Part shown: positions 1,290-49,126 of the stretch, piece after piece
Numbering within the stretch: position 1 is the first letter of the stretch
How the letters are laid out: each line of letters begins with the position of its first letter
NCBI GenBank assembly: GCA_944349855.1
Contig: CALVNS010000019.1
Span: forward strand, 1-51,450
Source of the DNA: an uncultured Eubacteriales bacterium
GTDB lineage: Bacteria; Bacillota; Clostridia; Christensenellales; Aristaeellaceae
Direction: 5' to 3'
DNA length: 51,450 bases
Notes under the pieces: generated by a model
Told to the model about the DNA's origin: nothing
Database searches by the model: none
Seen by the model: only the letters and a program-made list of their open reading frames with translations
Made by a program: the position numbers and the translations under genes

Positions 1290-1811
1290 ATGCAGCTCAG
1301 CATGAAATGCTCCGTTGCGGTCCACTGCTTACTATTCATCTATGAGGCGAAGGGAGCCGTCAAGGTGACCAGCGACCTTCTGGCCCAAAGCACGGGGTGC
1401 AACCCCGTGGTGATCCGCAACATTCTCAGCCGGCTGAAGAAGGCCGGTTTGATTACCGTGCCGCGCGGCACCGGCGGCGCGGCGTTGTGCGCAGATCCGG
1501 GCAGGGTCACGCTTTACCAGATCTATACCGCGCTGGAGCCGAAGGGGCTCGCCTCTCTGATTGGGATTCATCCCTGTCAGGGCCGTCCCTGTCCTGTGGC
1601 GCAAAACATCGGCAGTGTATTGCGCAGCCCCTACCGCAAAATTGAGGAGGCCGTCAAGCAGGCGATGGAAGGCGTCACCCTGCAGTCCATGATTGATGCA
1701 TTCGAAAGCACATCCGACGCCCCCGAGAAGGTTGATGCAAACGGCCTCCTGCAAGCGGCCGTGCAGCGCTACCCCACAAAGGAGACGAAGCCGCCATGCC
1801 TACCGACATGA
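1290..1811 (+). CDS. Rrf2 family transcriptional regulator
   Basis: The 173-residue protein has the N-terminal winged helix of the Rrf2 family, which begins MQLSMKCSVAVHCLL and continues with recognition-helix residues near CNPVVIRNILSRLKKAG. A cysteine-containing segment, HPCQGRPCPVAQNI, lies at the position where family members carry redox- or Fe-S-sensing residues. It lacks the full three-cysteine IscR spacing, so it is closer to the YwnA type. The start at 1290 was chosen because GAAGGGA precedes it and the family motif begins there. Its last 16 bases overlap the next regulator gene. It probably represses the divergent EFR1 gene through the palindrome at 1227-1245. Confidence 0.88.
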   Translation: MQLSMKCSVAVHCLLFIYEAKGAVKVTSDLLAQSTGCNPVVIRNILSRLKKAGLITVPRGTGGAALCADPGRVTLYQIYTALEPKGLASLIGIHPCQGRPCPVAQNIGSVLRSPYRKIEEAVKQAMEGVTLQSMIDAFESTSDAPEKVDANGLLQAAVQRYPTKETKPPCLPT

Positions 1812-2329
1812 AGGAGACCATTGCAGAGGCCACGCTGGCGCTTTTGACGCAGCCCCATATGAAAAAGCTTACGGTCAAGGACATTGTAGAGCAATGCCAC
1901 ATCACCCGGCAGGCGTTTTATTACCATTTTGCAGGGATCCCCGACCTGCTCCGCTGGATGATAGAGGGCTATTTTGAGCAGATCCTGCAAAAGACGTTGG
2001 CTCAGGAGAATATGGAGGAAGGGTTGCGCTGCTTTTTTGTCATGGCGACCAGCGCCATCCCGTATTTCGAGCACGGGCTGGACAGCAACTATCGTACAGA
2101 GTTGGAGCAGATGCTGCGCGAATGCTTCCAGCGCTCTTTCGCCCTGGCGTCGGCGCGAAAAAACTTTTATGCGAACTGCACCGGTTCGGAAATCAAGATC
2201 ATCCTGCGCTATCACAGCCAGGCGTTCCTGGGCCTGCTGCGGGAATGGACGGAGGACGACACCAAGCAGTTGGATCAGATCGTCCACACGGTGTATCGCC
2301 TGATTGTGCAGGGCATTCCGCCTCTATGA
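1796..2329 (+). CDS. TetR family transcriptional regulator
   Basis: A 177-residue protein with a typical TetR helix-turn-helix at about residues 25-50 (TVKDIVEQC, then ITRQAFYYHF) and a helical ligand-binding C-terminal part of the DhaS-like kind. It starts inside the end of the Rrf2 gene (16-base overlap), so the two are translated from one message. Two unrelated repressors in one transcript suggest that two signals converge on nearby genes. Ligand and targets cannot be read from sequence. A strong terminator follows. Confidence 0.88.
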   Translation: MPTDMKETIAEATLALLTQPHMKKLTVKDIVEQCHITRQAFYYHFAGIPDLLRWMIEGYFEQILQKTLAQENMEEGLRCFFVMATSAIPYFEHGLDSNYRTELEQMLRECFQRSFALASARKNFYANCTGSEIKIILRYHSQAFLGLLREWTEDDTKQLDQIVHTVYRLIVQGIPPL

Positions 2330-2356: not shown

Positions 2357-2395
2357 AAAACCCGGAGTGTAAAGAATCTTTACATTCCGGGTTTT
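2357..2395 (+). terminator. Rho-independent terminator after the TetR gene
   Basis: An 18-base hairpin with a three-base AAT loop and one G-T wobble pair ends in TTTT. It closes the Rrf2-TetR operon. Confidence 0.85.
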
Positions 2396-2424
2396 GTGTC
2401 TATACAGCGCCGACAATGTGCTCA

Positions 2425-2453
2425 TTGCAAGAAGGGTACAAGCCATCTACAAT
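2425..2453 (+). promoter_or_regulatory. Promoter of the accessory FtsH operon
   Basis: TTGCAA and TACAAT are separated by 17 bases, placed 23 bases before the first gene of the operon. No obvious operator overlaps it. Confidence 0.65.
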
Positions 2454-2476
2454 AGAAAGCAAAAGGAGGGATCTCT

Positions 2477-2908
2477 ATGGCGCATGGGATTTTGGCCGTA
2501 AAGCTCTGCGAGCTGGAAGACCAACTGACCGGGCTCAGCAGCCGGATCCACCTGAGCGAGACGGCCGGCCACGACCGGCTCCGACGGGAAATCGAGACGC
2601 TGTCCCGGGAGTATGTCGAGGCGGATCTGACCCTGCAAAAGAGATTGCAGCGATCCCGAGCGGAGATCGTCTCCGTTCTGGCAGATGCCTATGACCAAGT
2701 CGGGCGGATTCTGCACGGGGCAAGGGACGAGCTTGAGCGGCAGACGTCCGCATGCAGCGACTCCGACGTCGCGGCGGAAGAGAAGATCCTGCTGGCGGAA
2801 TACGGCCTGGATTTTGCCATGCAGGCGGCAAACCGTGCCCTGCTGCTTGCGATGCAGGCCATGGACGCCCAGCTGACACAACAGGAACAGGAGAGGAGAA
2901 CATCATGA
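2477..2908 (+). CDS. Charged helical protein, first gene of FtsH operon
   Basis: This 143-residue protein is not recognised as a named family. It is rich in Glu, Arg, Gln and Leu, with no membrane segment or signal peptide. Long stretches around residues 25-75 and 95-140 look like amphipathic or coiled-coil helices, with an Ala/Met/Gln-rich tail. The ATG is preceded by a perfect AAAGGAGGG. Its stop overlaps the ftsH start (ATGA at 2905-2908), so translation is coupled and roughly equal amounts are expected. A role as adaptor, substrate presenter or regulator of the adjacent FtsH is inference from context only. Confidence 0.75.
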   Translation: MAHGILAVKLCELEDQLTGLSSRIHLSETAGHDRLRREIETLSREYVEADLTLQKRLQRSRAEIVSVLADAYDQVGRILHGARDELERQTSACSDSDVAAEEKILLAEYGLDFAMQAANRALLLAMQAMDAQLTQQEQERRTS

Positions 2909-4734
2909 AAGAGGTAAAGACGCCCAGGAAGCCGCTGATCTATTATTACTGCATCGTGCTGTTGATCATCCTGCTGTTCAACCTGCTCGTCACCCCGCTG
3001 CTCTCGCAGAATCAGGTGGTGGATGTGGGCTATGGCACGTTCATGGACATGATCGACGCGCAGAACATCGGCGTCGTGCAGGTGGAGGACACCCAGATCC
3101 TGTTCACGGATCAGGCCGGAACGACGGTCTACCGGACGGGCCCGATGGAGGACCCCACCCTCACCCAGCGGCTCCACGACGCCGGCGCGGAATTCACCCG
3201 GGTTATGGAGGAGCCGGTCTCCCCGCTTTGGAGCTTTCTGTTGACCTTTGTGCTGCCCGTTCTCATCTTCGCCGGGTTGGGCCAATACATGAGCAAAAGG
3301 CTGATGGAACAGGCGGGCGGCGGCAAAAACGCCATGGCCTTTGGCCTGGGGAAGAGCAATGCCAAGGTCTACGTGCAGTCCACCAAGGGGATCAAGTTCT
3401 CCGACGTCGCCGGCGAGGATGAAGCCAAGGAGAGCCTTGCGGAAATCGTCGATTATCTGCACAACCCGCAAAAATACACCGAGGCGGGCGCTTCCATGCC
3501 CAAGGGCGTGCTGCTGGTGGGCCCTCCGGGCACCGGCAAGACCATGCTGGCCAAGGCGGTGGCCGGCGAGGCAGACGTCCCCTTTTTCTCCATTGCCGGC
3601 AGCGAGTTTGTCGAGATGTTTGTGGGCATGGGCGCCTCGAAGGTGCGCGACCTCTTCAAGCAGGCCAAGGAAAAGGCGCCCTGCATCGTATTCATTGACG
3701 AGATCGACGCCATCGGACAGAAGCGCAGCTCCGGCAATCTGGGCGGCAATGACGAGCGTGAGCAGACGCTCAATCAGCTGCTCACCGAGATGGACGGTTT
3801 TGAGGGAAACAACGGCGTGATGATTCTGGCGGCCACCAATCGCCCCGAATCGCTGGATCCCGCCCTGACCCGTCCCGGACGCTTTGACCGGCGCGTGCCG
3901 GTGGAACTGCCCGACCTGAAGGGGCGAGAGGCGATCTTGAATGTCCACGCCAAGAAGATCCGGACGGCGCCGGATGTGGATTTCCACGCCATCGCACGCA
4001 TGGCCGCCGGCGCTTCGGGCGCGGAGCTGGCCAACATCATCAACGAGGCGGCGCTGCGGGCCGTGCGCAATGGCCGCACCATCGTCAACCAGGCCGATCT
4101 GGAGGAAAGCATCGAAGTAGTCATTGCCGGCTATCAAAAGAAGAACGCCATCCTCTCCAGCGATGAGAAGCTGATCGTGGCCTATCACGAGATCGGCCAT
4201 GCGCTGGTGGCAGCCAAGCAGACGAACTCTGCCCCCGTACAGAAGATCACCATCATTCCCCGTACTTCCGGCGCGCTGGGCTATACCATGCAGGTGGATA
4301 CCGGGGACAAAAACCTCTTGACCAAGGAAGAGCTGGAAAACAAGATTGCCACCCTGACCGGCGGACGTGCCGCCGAGGAGGTGGCCTTCGGCCGCATCAC
4401 AACCGGCGCCTCCAACGACATCGAGCAGGCAACCAAGCTGGCCCGCGCCATGATCAGCCGCTATGGCATGAGTGAGGACTTTGACATGGTCGCCATGGAG
4501 ACGGTGCAAAACCAATACCTGGGCGGAGACGCTGCGCTGGCCTGTTCTCCCGCCACCCAGCAGGAGATCGACCGCAAGGTGGTAGAGCTGGTGAAAAGTC
4601 AGCATGCAAAGGCCAGAGAGATCCTGGAGAATCACCGCTCCAAGCTGGATGAATTGGCCAAGTTCCTCTATGAGCGGGAAACCATCACCGGCCAGGAGTT
4701 CATGGACATCTTGACGGGAGGGGAGAAGCAATGA
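2905..4734 (+). CDS. ftsH: Accessory ATP-dependent zinc metalloprotease FtsH
   Basis: A 609-residue membrane-anchored AAA+ protease, normal length for FtsH. Two membrane helices (about 10-31 and 107-127) flank a short extracytoplasmic domain. The AAA module has Walker A GPPGTGKT (206-213), Walker B FIDEID (near 262) and the second region of homology ending RPGRFDRR. The protease domain has HEIGH (428-432) and the third zinc ligand Asp505 in [11 protein letters not shown]. All catalytic residues are present, so it should be active. It degrades membrane and short-lived cytosolic proteins. The setting between a small helical protein and an HdeD-like membrane protein, both overlapping by four bases, differs from the housekeeping ftsH locus (usually near tilS and hpt). 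It is therefore probably a specialised second copy. Confidence 0.95.
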
Positions 4735-5273
4735 AAAGGCGCTCGGGGTTTGGCTGGATGGAACTGGCCATCGGTATTGTGTTGCTTGTATTGGGCGTCC
4801 TGACCTTCTCATGGCCGGAGCTCGCCCTGACCAGCTTGGTATTCGCCTATGGAATCGCGGCGGTGGTGATGGGCGTGGCGGATATCATCCTGTATATTCA
4901 GGTGGAGCGCTACACGGGCTTTGGTCCGATGCTCGCCCTGGTTTCGGGCATTCTGAGCGTCATGTCCGGCGTCATGCTGATGGTGTATCCCCGGACGGGC
5001 GTGCTGGTGCTGACCATTCTGTTCCCCATCTGGTTCATTGCCCACTGCATCTCCAGGCTCGCCCACATGAACCACATTCGTCTGGTGGCGGGCAACGGGA
5101 TCTATTATTTTACCTTGGCGACAAACATCGTCGGGCTGGCCCTGGGATTGCTGATGCTGCTCAACCCGCTGTTTACGCTGACCACCATCCGCTATTTTGC
5201 CAGCGTCTATCTGATCCTGCTGGGGATAGACAGTGTGGTGACGGCCGTCAGCCGCATGGGAACGCGATACTGA
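4731..5273 (+). CDS. HdeD/DUF308 family membrane protein
   Basis: A 180-residue polytopic protein with about six hydrophobic helices and short polar loops, matching the DUF308/HdeD fold. Family members are linked to acid or envelope stress, but their biochemistry is poorly known. Its ATG overlaps the ftsH stop (ATGA), so it is the third gene of a tightly coupled operon. It may be a partner or substrate of this FtsH in the membrane; that is inference. A large hairpin follows about 125 bases downstream. Confidence 0.82.
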   Translation: MKRRSGFGWMELAIGIVLLVLGVLTFSWPELALTSLVFAYGIAAVVMGVADIILYIQVERYTGFGPMLALVSGILSVMSGVMLMVYPRTGVLVLTILFPIWFIAHCISRLAHMNHIRLVAGNGIYYFTLATNIVGLALGLLMLLNPLFTLTTIRYFASVYLILLGIDSVVTAVSRMGTRY

Positions 5274-5397
5274 GCCGGGCGTGCGCGTCTTCGCTCTTGC
5301 GCGGACGGGCTGCGTCTCCCTGCGCCTTGGGAGGGCTGGGACGCCCCATCCATGCGGATCGCTGGCGGCAGGGATGTGTTTGGCATTTGATGCAATC

Positions 5398-5435
5398 GGG
5401 GTTCGCTCACCGCATCGCAACGGTGTGCGAACCCC
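5398..5435. terminator. Large hairpin between convergent genes
   Basis: GGGGTTCGC and CACC arms pair with GGTG and GCGAACCCC, with one T-T mismatch and a loop of about ten bases. It lies between two convergent operons. There is no clear U-tract on either strand, so a terminator role is plausible but not certain. Confidence 0.5.
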
Positions 5436-5455
5436 TTGGCGTATGCAAAAAGGCA

Positions 5456-6373
5456 TTATGATTGATGGTTGCGCCGCCCGGTGTTTTCCGATCCCCGGAT
5501 CTCTTCGTGGTAGAAGTAATCCACGATCGCCGGATGGCCCGGTTCAGCCCGGCCATAGGGCAGTTCATTGTCCACAAAGGGGCATCCGTTGTCCTCAGCC
5601 AGCCGCTGCGCCTGCTGCTCCAGCGAGTGGAAGTAGCTGCGGTCCCCTGCATTGTAGATGGCGTGATACAGCGCAAGCAGGTGGGGATACTTTTCTGCGA
5701 TATAGTTCAGAATCTCCTGCTTGAATCCGCCCCGCAGGTTCAGATTTTCCAGCCAGATCAGATCGCACTGATCTTTGACCCGCCGAAAGATTGCCGCAAA
5801 ATCCGTGATGCCGGGAAAGACCGGAGAAATGAAGCAGACGGTGCGGATGCCTGCGTCGTAGACCCGCTTCATGGCGGCCAGCCGACGCTCAATGCTCACC
5901 GCCTTGTCCATATCGGCCCGGAAGCCCTCATCCAGGGTATTGATGGACCAGGAGACGGTCACCTTTCCCATTTCCTTGAGCAAGTCAATGTCCCGCACCA
6001 CCAGATCCGACTTGGTGCAGATCAAGATCTCCGCTCCGCTGCCTTTGAGCTGCTCCAGCAGTTGGCGTGTATTGTAAAACTGCGCCTCCTGAGGCAGGTA
6101 GCCGTCGGTCACAGAGCCGATGACCACCCGCTGGCCCTGGTATTTCTCTGCGTTGCGGATGGCCGGCCAGTGCTTGACATCCAGGAACGTGCCCCAGGGC
6201 TCCTTGTGGCCTGTAAACCGCTTCATAAAGGAGGCATAGCAATATTTGCAGCCGTGGGTGCAACCCACATAGGGATTGACGGAGTAGCCGCCCACCGGCA
6301 GGCTGGATTTGGACATGATGTTCTGAGTGTACACGTCCCGGATCAGGACGTCGCTTTCGATGATTTCTGCCAT
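5456..6373 (-). CDS. SPL-type radical SAM protein
   Basis: A 305-residue protein with the radical SAM cluster motif GCTHGCKYCYA (Cys38, 42, 45), in a context typical of the spore photoproduct lyase-like (SplB/Rv2578c) branch. It lacks recognised extra cluster domains. The chemistry is unknown; many relatives sit in small operons with other radical SAM proteins. The ATG at 6373 has a GGAGGA site upstream and lies inside the 3' end of the upstream DUF5131 gene (31-base overlap), so the pair is translationally linked. The pair is divergent from an HxlR regulator. True spore photoproduct lyase function is unlikely from length and context. Confidence 0.82.
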   Translation of the reverse strand: MAEIIESDVLIRDVYTQNIMSKSSLPVGGYSVNPYVGCTHGCKYCYASFMKRFTGHKEPWGTFLDVKHWPAIRNAEKYQGQRVVIGSVTDGYLPQEAQFYNTRQLLEQLKGSGAEILICTKSDLVVRDIDLLKEMGKVTVSWSINTLDEGFRADMDKAVSIERRLAAMKRVYDAGIRTVCFISPVFPGITDFAAIFRRVKDQCDLIWLENLNLRGGFKQEILNYIAEKYPHLLALYHAIYNAGDRSYFHSLEQQAQRLAEDNGCPFVDNELPYGRAEPGHPAIVDYFYHEEIRGSENTGRRNHQS

Positions 6374-47252: not shown

Positions 47253-48419
47253 TCACTCGTGGCGCAGCGCCTCGATGGGATTGAGCTTGCTGGCCTTGTT
47301 GGCCGGATAGATGCCAAACAGCACGCCGATGCACACCGCAAACGTGAGCGCGAGCGTCGCGCTGCCCGGCGAGACCGCCAGCGTCGGGATGCCCATGGGC
47401 CCGCGCAGCGCCATCAGCAGCGCCGTCGAGACGGCCAGGCCGATCAGCGCGCCCGCCACGGACAGCACGATCGCCTCGACCAGGAACTGCATGAGGATCG
47501 CGCTGCGCGGCGCGCCGATGGCCTTGCGGATGCCGATCTCGCGCGTGCGCTCCGTGACCGACACGAGCATGATGTTCATGATGCCGATGCCGCCCACGAG
47601 CAGCGCGATGCCGGCGATGCCGGTGATCAGCGTGGTGAGCGTGGCGGTGACCTCATCCATCATGTCCAGCACGGCGGACTGGCTGGTCAGGGAGAAGTCG
47701 TCGTCCGGATCGCTCACGCGCGCGGAGACGAAGCGGCGCAGGCGCTGCTCGGCCTGGTCCATGACGTCCTCCGACGCGCCGGAGGCGTAAAAGCTCGTGA
47801 TGGACGTGGAGCCGAACATGCGCTGGGCGAGCGTAAAGGGAATGATGATCTTCTCGTCGTCGGAGATGATCATGCTCGAGCCCTGCTCCTCCAGCACGCC
47901 CACGATGCGCAGGTCGTACCCGCGCACGGACACGCTCTGGCCCACGACGTCGCGCGTGCCGAAGAGCCGGTCGGCGACCTTGACGCCGATGACGCACACC
48001 GGCAGGCGCAGGTCGTTGTCCAGCTCGCCGACGGTCACGCCCTGCTCGACCTCGAGCTGGCGAATGTAAAAGTAGGACGCGCCCACGCCCTCGAGCGTGC
48101 AGTCGTAGGTGTCCAGCGTGGACTTGGCCGTCACGCTCTGGCTGAGGACGGGCGACACGGCGCTGATCGTCTCCCCGTCGGCGAGCGAGGCGAGGTTGTC
48201 CAGGTCGATGCCGGTGTAGCGGTCGGTCTTGACCGTCACCTGCATCAGGTTCGCGCCCAGATCCTCGATCTGGCCGGTGACGCTGTCCATCGCGCCCTCG
48301 CCCAGCGAGGAGAGCACGACCACTGCCACCACGCCGATGATGACGCCCAGCACCGTCAGGAACGAGCGCATCTTGTTGGACAGGATCGAGGAGAGAGCCA
48401 TCTTGATCGACTGCTTCAT
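47253..48419 (-). CDS. MacB-type ABC transporter permease
   Basis: A 388-residue permease: one N-terminal helix, an extracytosolic MacB_PCD domain (about residues 45-260), then three helices of the FtsX-like domain. [15 protein letters not shown] is the FtsX loop signature. It works with the ATPase of the next gene and the adaptor to export a peptide or drug, or to act as a mechanotransmitter. The start overlaps the ATPase stop (four bases, ATGA). Confidence 0.94.
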
Positions 48420-49126
48420 GCGCCGCCTCCTTCCACGGCCCGGCTGCCGCCCGGCTCCACCTCGCTCAGGCGGCCGTCGCGGATGTGCACGCAGCGCGGC
48501 GCGCGCGCGGCGATCTCCGGGTTGTGCGTGATGAGCACGATGGCGTTGCCCTGCGCGTGCAGCTCCTCGAGCATGTCCATGATCTCCACGGTGGTCTTCG
48601 AGTCGAGGTTGCCCGTCGGCTCGTCGGCCAGGATGATCGACGGACGCGTGACGACCGCGCGCGCCACGGCCACGCGCTGCTGCTGGCCGCCCGACAGCTG
48701 GTTGGGCCGGTGGTGCATGCGCTGGCCCAGGCCCACACGGCTGAGCGCCTCGCCCACGCGCACGCGCCGCTCCTTCTCGCTCACGCCCTGATAGATCAGC
48801 GGCAGCTCGACATTCTCATAGGCCGTCAGCTTCTGCAGCAGGTTGAACTGCTGGAACACAAAGCCGATCTTGCGCCCGCGGATGGCCGCAAGCTGGCGCT
48901 GGCTGTAGCGCGCGATGTCCACGCCGTCCAGCCGGTAGACGCCGCCGTCGGCCGCATCCAGGCAGCCGATGATGTTCATGAGCGTGGACTTGCCCGAGCC
49001 CGACGGCCCGATGATCGACACGTACTCGTGGTCGCCGACCGTCAGGTTCACGTGGTCGAGCGCCGTGACCGTCTCGCCGCCGAGCACGTACCGCTTTTGG
49101 ATGTCCTCCAGTTCGATCATAATCAC
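48416..49126 (-). CDS. MacB/LolD-type ABC transporter ATPase
   Basis: A 236-residue ATPase. Walker [10 protein letters not shown], signature LSGGQQQR, Walker B ILADEPTG and the switch His in LITHN are all intact. [13 protein letters not shown] is typical of the MacB/LolD group. It overlaps the adaptor stop and the permease start by four bases each, so all three subunits are translated together. The start may be either of two ATGs (49126 or 49120). Confidence 0.96.

Follow-up and report, generated by a model that had tools for sequence, protein, structure and literature searches.

The window analysed here, a stretch of 51,450 nucleotides from an uncultured Eubacteriales bacterium (contig CALVNS010000019.1 of assembly GCA_944349855.1), carries on its forward strand a compact operon built around an accessory FtsH protease. 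Its three open reading frames (ORFs) encode an unnamed four-helix protein of 143 residues without a hydrophobic membrane stretch (2477..2908), an FtsH of 609 residues with intact catalytic motifs (2905..4734) and a membrane protein of 180 residues from the DUF308 family (4731..5273). Adjacent ORFs share an ATGA, at 2905–2908 and 4731–4734, and the coordinates thus bear out the original prediction that the three are coupled in this way at both junctions. That prediction holds for the operon itself, but it overlooked a tetR gene (1796..2329, forward strand, 177 residues) and an operator-like palindrome lying just upstream, and we count this tetR as the first gene of the unit. We consider it fairly probable that the locus is a TetR-switched envelope-stress cassette whose membrane effectors are exchangeable, arranged as tetR–four-helix–accessory ftsH–DUF308. 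The case is built from sequence comparisons, which show the order of the genes, their overlaps, a conserved operator-like element, exchange of the effector gene and a patchy spread in which Spirochaetes appear among Clostridia.

The regulator combines a TetR_N domain (PF00440, 29.9 bits, cut-off 24) with a TetR_C_8 domain (PF14278, 26.3 bits, cut-off 26.1), and its nearest named family is the DhaS type (TIGR02366, TetR_C_8). It differs from DhaS proper in that it scores 50 bits against an equivalog cut-off of 129 and in that the genes behind it do not encode dihydroxyacetone kinase; a literature search for DhaS operators gave nothing of use. The third protein matches PF03729 over three stretches (E = 3.3e-19, 69.3 bits against a gathering threshold of 25). 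Its earlier label of 'HdeD-like' is correct as far as DUF308 membership goes, but does not extend to the HdeD acid-resistance equivalog NF007577, where it reaches 21.9 bits against a cut-off of 189.

Relatives of the four-helix protein were retrieved from public genomes with five aligned helical proteins as the query, and the best 80 of 121 were kept. In 73 of these 80 loci a tetR gene precedes the helical gene on the same strand at a distance of no more than 3.5 kb; six have none there and one is at a contig start. The gene after the helical gene encodes FtsH in 73 loci (a tally of 72 plus L053, a split match assigned by hand, with broken copies such as those of L042, L064 and L088 counted), an ABC exporter in three, a MacB-like protein in two, and an MMPL protein and a GT8 glycosyltransferase in one each. 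The first protein is therefore conserved beside ftsH in relatives, as the original prediction implied. Measured at the junctions, a 4 nt overlap is present between the helical and ftsH genes in 48 of 73 related loci and between ftsH and the DUF308 gene in 46 of 53, an ATGA at the DUF308 start alone not being taken as an overlap. Since the same overlap recurs across related loci, a chance overlap of the window ORFs is ruled out. DUF308 follows FtsH in 52 of the 66 loci with room to tell, and in 21 of the 80 (including L023, L024, L025 and L028) the cassette is followed by a GT8 gene of the same orientation. An ABC pair comes after DUF308 in L027 and L050, and an MMPL-like protein (pieces of 24–33% identity) in L049. 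Further non-duplicate loci with FtsH beyond the 80 are L018, L021, L106, L110 and L111, although stops interrupt the helical frame in L021/L105. The helical proteins of L019, L020 and L107 are identical to those of L076, L102 and L058 and are not extra cases.

AlphaFold2 predicts four long helices for the window helical protein, with a predicted local distance difference test score (pLDDT) of 90.6 and a predicted template-modelling score (pTM) of 0.73, and the same helix layout for a MacB-linked relative, L099 (pLDDT 85.9, pTM 0.73). Six residues, Lys9, Leu105, Ala107, Glu108, Asp112 and Ala128, are invariant across 55 helical sequences. NCBIfam gave no match up to E = 1, Pfam only a sub-threshold one (Vps52_C, E = 0.042), and neither PADLOC nor PHROGs returned any; single members among the 55 show weak, scattered family matches (ZapG-like, sll1863 and similar). 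A fold search found nothing at E = 0.001, the best values being 6.5 in the PDB and 3.6 in a viral library. In a profile search of PDB sequences the best match was a dephospho-CoA kinase (E = 0.0086), followed by an apolipoprotein and other coiled-coil types. The protein defines an unnamed family. PADLOC had no matches up to E = 0.01 for the helical, DUF308 and TetR proteins, which rules out a known anti-phage defence system, while the window FtsH matches eight models through its AAA+ part, with IetA as the best.

The gene behind the helical gene can be exchanged. In seven of the 80 loci the FtsH position is taken by an ABC exporter, MacB-type ABC, MMPL or GT8 gene, and three further independent exchanges were found beyond the 80 (L109, ABC; L108, MacB-like; L163, DUF308). 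ABC pairs replace FtsH in L056, L067, L102 and L109, MacB-like proteins in L097, L099 and L108, an MMPL protein in L076 and a GT8 protein in L091. L163, a second locus in the genome of L098, reads tetR–helical–DUF308 with no FtsH between. Pfam names the swapped representatives as ABC_membrane/ABC_tran (L067, L102), ABC_tran plus FtsX (L099), MMPL (L076) and GT8, and the helical proteins of the exchange loci retain the conserved residues. Because exporters also replace FtsH behind it, the helical protein does not look as if it were made solely for FtsH.

This bears directly on the adaptor proposed in the original prediction, which saw a dedicated complex of the FtsH with a new adaptor. In its sharper form this reading makes the four-helix protein a dedicated FtsH adaptor or assembly factor that is a relic or re-employed elsewhere, which we regard as possible yet rather unlikely. 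It is true that FtsH is the commonest neighbour by far, that it adjoins the helical gene in 73 of the 80 loci and shares 4 nt with it in 48 of the 73, and that a helical FtsH partner, Psb29/Thf1, is known for cyanobacterial FtsH2/FtsH3 (PMC5566888). According to the same paper, however, Psb29 has 222 residues and nine helices, and it is absent among the 22 profile matches and the four Foldseek PDB matches (both up to E = 10) of our four-helix protein. Against a dedicated adaptor stand the loci in which the helical gene precedes ABC, MacB-like, MMPL, GT8 or DUF308 genes instead. FtsHs at least 60% identical to the window copy over at least 500 residues occur, among the matches listed, in 45 of 100 relatives (window included), compared with five of 100 for the helical protein in a single-sequence search. 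This FtsH type therefore also exists without the helical protein, and a helical-family profile run over 30 FtsH loci matched only the already known cassettes L115, L116 and L120.

Covariation of the cassette proteins was calculated for 52 of the 80 loci. The partial correlation is 0.78 for the helical–TetR pair and 0.12 (p = 0.136) for the helical–FtsH pair, and in all five analyses the helical–FtsH value is the lowest of the helical pairs (0.03–0.19), a test that is blunted by the low variation of FtsH. These values favour TetR over FtsH as the partner of the helical protein, but are not decisive.

The window FtsH is complete, with Walker A, Walker B, SRH, HEIGH and GASND motifs, and scores 744 bits against TIGR01241 (cut-off 600), which covers the N-terminal membrane part, the AAA+ domain and the M41 zinc protease. 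Its genome holds four M41 loci (the window and contigs 32, 67 and 78). The window gene is thus not the sole ftsH of the genome, and the earlier view that it is not the housekeeping copy proves correct. The ftsH of contig 78 sits downstream of a tilS gene (Pfam ATP_bind_3 plus TilS_C), and its product shares 48% identity with the window FtsH across residues 104–606; contig 32 encodes a different accessory type, with 65% identity to the window copy, and the copy on contig 67 is shorter. The window copy has neither the tilS context nor a grouping with the core copy, and is an accessory FtsH. A quick tree of 86 FtsHs, rooted at the midpoint, places the contig 78 and contig 67 proteins on very long outer branches and the window copy elsewhere. 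A single clade (Shimodaira–Hasegawa-like approximate likelihood ratio test, SH-aLRT, 99) unites 55 of the 58 cassette-labelled FtsHs with six others: L120, which is the cassette of genome G015, and L117, L118, L119, L122 and L124, whose genomes have no match to the helical protein (P0001). Since the cassette FtsHs of L072, L078 and L102 fall outside this main clade, as does the contig 32 copy, FtsH seems to have been recruited into cassettes more than once.

A few accessory FtsH loci are organized differently. In L127 (92-1428), genes for a TetR with TetR_C_8 and a DUF308 protein immediately precede an accessory FtsH and the helical gene is absent, which makes this locus a variant of the cassette. 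Accessory FtsHs without the helical protein lie downstream of patatin genes in L125, L128 and L132 (assigned by Pfam for L125 and L132 and by eye for L128), and Pfam also names a patatin in L095. The cassette FtsH of L012 (genome G051, 4725-5540) ends after about 256 residues, and in several other loci contig ends or deletions fall within this ftsH, perhaps through assembly across similar paralogs.

The intergenic region between tetR and the helical gene contains a palindrome, GTGTAAAG…CTTTACA (about 2357..2395), and at a fixed distance from it the element TGTCTATACA (2397..2406, forward strand). The palindrome core, TGTAAAGAATCTTTACA (2368–2384), looks like a protein site and is our putative TetR operator, while its outer arms may also form a hairpin in the transcript. 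A consensus scan places a sigma-70-like promoter, TTGCAA-17-TACAAT, at 2425..2453 (−35 at 2425–2430, −10 at 2448–2453), the first base of which is where the original prediction began. It matches nine of 12 consensus positions, and the region holds three promoter-like sites compared with 1.6 (standard deviation 1.3) in shuffles; taken alone this match is weak. A ribosome-binding site, GGAGG, follows at 2465..2469.

For comparison we assembled 71 intergenic sequences, consisting of the window and 70 of the 80 loci, seven having been dropped for want of an upstream TetR match and three for wide gaps. The operator core pattern, which like the −10 class below was defined after inspecting the sequences, is present in 60 of the 71, with 14 other matches in the 842 kb of the 80 loci, four of which also lie just upstream of a helical gene. 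TGTN4ACA occurs in 58 of the 71 (3.2 in shuffles), at 12 bp from the palindrome in 38 and at 13 bp in seven (45 in total), and lies 18 bp ahead of a TTG −35 in 32 of the 41 with such a match. With the right-arm TTTACA taken as a −35, a TATACA-like −10 follows at 15–17 bp in 62 of the 71. The TGTCTATACA element may be either a second binding element or a −10 paired with this right-arm −35, and the TetR may be either a repressor at the right-arm promoter or an activator of the downstream promoter. At up to three mismatches the window genome contains a single site, which rules out a regulon of such sites within it.

The palindrome could also be chiefly the terminator of tetR, with the whole being an ordinary TetR-regulated operon and the helical protein an unimportant passenger, and this we think unlikely. 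In an alignment of 24 of the 71 sequences, hand-picked and nearly all plain palindromes so that the pairing counts lean that way, 92.6% of the cells pair, and for 11 pairs both partners change (52 cells; none of 500 shuffles as high). The arms thus covary, and a T-rich stretch follows them, as a terminator would have it. Four core pairs are nevertheless invariant, TGTCTATACA and its spacing are conserved, and the window scan did not list the palindrome as a terminator. A mere tetR terminator is further disfavoured because L023 and L024 keep the element although the preceding gene is not tetR, even if it could end those other genes. A passenger role fits poorly with the persistence of the helical gene through effector exchange. 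Where tetR is missing within 3.5 kb, a TetR of 49–59% identity is encoded on another contig of the genomes of L024, L026, L077 and L098, that of the L098 genome belonging to the L163 cassette, and in L083 a TetR is encoded on the same contig and strand 7.9 kb upstream. The L026 helical sequence has an over-extended start (185 residues) in one sequence set.

Several results weigh against a TetR-switched cassette with exchangeable effectors. FtsH is the usual helical neighbour (73 of 80) and overlaps it by 4 nt, which fits a true FtsH partner; L102 has an FtsH after its ABC pair, and the contig of L067 ends within the second ABC gene. Some of the 80 loci are not independent of each other: within four pairs the helical protein is at least 80% identical. 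By ranks the covariation is 0.55 for helical–TetR and 0.19 for helical–FtsH, and in the main clade 0.38 and 0.19, while the helical–DUF308 value is the strongest (0.40) once DUF308 is added. On the side of the operator, the outer arms show compensatory changes and G–U cells, such that part of the element may be a transcript hairpin, and the genome of L023 is without a close TetR (best 28%). No clear pattern linked the operator variants to the residue that varies in the recognition helix of the TetR. A strict version of the operator pattern (one mismatch) was found in 13 of 291 genomes of the class, window included, against 16 for a reversed control, which rules out a general clostridial regulon; it missed G303 and G108, both of which have helical–FtsH loci, and among the 14 strict-pattern loci retrieved only that of the window adjoins a TetR, FtsH or helical relative.

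By name, the hosts belong to the Oscillospiraceae, the Lachnospiraceae and other Clostridia, with animal gut as a frequent source; a Tissierellia, a Traorella and four Spirochaetes complete the set. Metagenome bins make up the majority, but the cassette is also carried by isolates such as Flavonifractor An100 and Pseudoflavonifractor phocaeensis An507. In the midpoint-rooted tree the four Spirochaetota FtsHs form a clade nested within the clostridial FtsHs, which suggests horizontal transfer of the cassette. Its prevalence is low: the helical family is present in five of 391 genomes of the class (window included, one with stops in frame), two of 299 of the phylum (window included) and one of 16 of the family of G419. 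Of 200 genomes in the family of G389 eight gave a match, among them an apparently false one (L113) and a remnant (L112). L113 (E = 1.2e-5) and L022 (E = 8e-4 in one search, lost in another) were rejected as family members, both being coiled-coil ORFs with sub-threshold Pfam matches. In L112 (genome G900, 1297-1725) the last part of a TetR continues in the same frame into the beginning of a helical gene; the match is partial and, by eye, the locus looks decayed. The helical protein has no match in plasmid, phage or viral-contig collections, which rules out phage or plasmid cargo.

Judged by title and the opening of the abstract, none of the papers listed from the open-licence literature describes the cassette. 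Among described systems, the proteobacterial transmissible locus of stress tolerance (tLST; PMC8290217) comes closest in pairing FtsH with HdeD, and a Pseudomonas aeruginosa FtsH2 xenolog has been described (PMC6629908). The FtsH-GI and HdeD-GI of the tLST, or locus of heat resistance (LHR), island resemble the cassette in placing an extra FtsH xenolog and an HdeD-type protein on a mobile stress locus. That the cassette is the clostridial counterpart of the tLST, giving heat or chlorine tolerance, seems to us improbable. The tLST does carry FtsH and HdeD and moves between species, but the text available of PMC8290217 has them in different modules, together with Clp, small heat-shock protein (sHsp) and YfdX genes, and mentions no TetR–four-helix pair. 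Conversely, no ClpG/ClpK, sHsp20, YfdX, KefB or DegP was noticed among the cassette neighbours read by eye, no search aimed at them having been made.

TetR-regulated multidrug exporter operons form another point of reference. Some cassette loci resemble them in that a regulator of this kind is followed by ABC or MMPL exporters, but the usual cassette effector is a protease and a four-helix gene lies between.

The preferred reading, a TetR-switched envelope-stress cassette, suggests the following course of events. A TetR dimer would bind GTGTAAAG…CTTTACA and sense an envelope-damaging compound or state, upon which the downstream operon would be switched on. FtsH would then clear membrane proteins that are damaged or misassembled, and the membrane itself might be repaired, modified or cleared by the DUF308 protein and, elsewhere, by GT8, ABC or MMPL proteins. 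The role of the cassette is probably protection of the cell envelope; what ligand is sensed, in which sense the TetR regulates and what the helical protein does are all inferences of ours. The four-helix protein would be a standing, probably cytosolic member of the circuit, and our preferred guess is that it acts together with the regulator or the signal, or else as a partner of the membrane effectors in general, rather than as an FtsH-only substrate adaptor. More speculatively, and with considerable doubt, it may be a cytosolic four-helix bundle that signals to the TetR what state the membrane effector (FtsH, ABC, MacB-like or MMPL) is in. It would then be the first of a family of TetR-paired signal proteins, and one regulator–sensor pair could be plugged in before different envelope-repair machines.

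An unnamed protein family and a portable cassette are thereby defined in gut-type bacteria, and an accessory FtsH is linked to one particular candidate switch and to the candidate DNA site of that switch. This leads to a testable claim, namely that the same regulator and helical protein precede a protease in the majority of hosts but exporters in the remainder. If the interpretation is right, it would offer a route to the envelope stress that gut Clostridia meet with an extra FtsH.

Two other features of the window deserve mention. An Rrf2-type regulator gene (1290-1811) overlaps the start of tetR at its end; because its product has no tblastn match at E = 1e-3 in the 80 related loci, it is probably a local addition and is not counted in the cassette. 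Distant from the cassette, on the reverse strand at 47256-49120, lies a stretch similar to the MacB-like ABC/FtsX protein (48% over the ATPase part).

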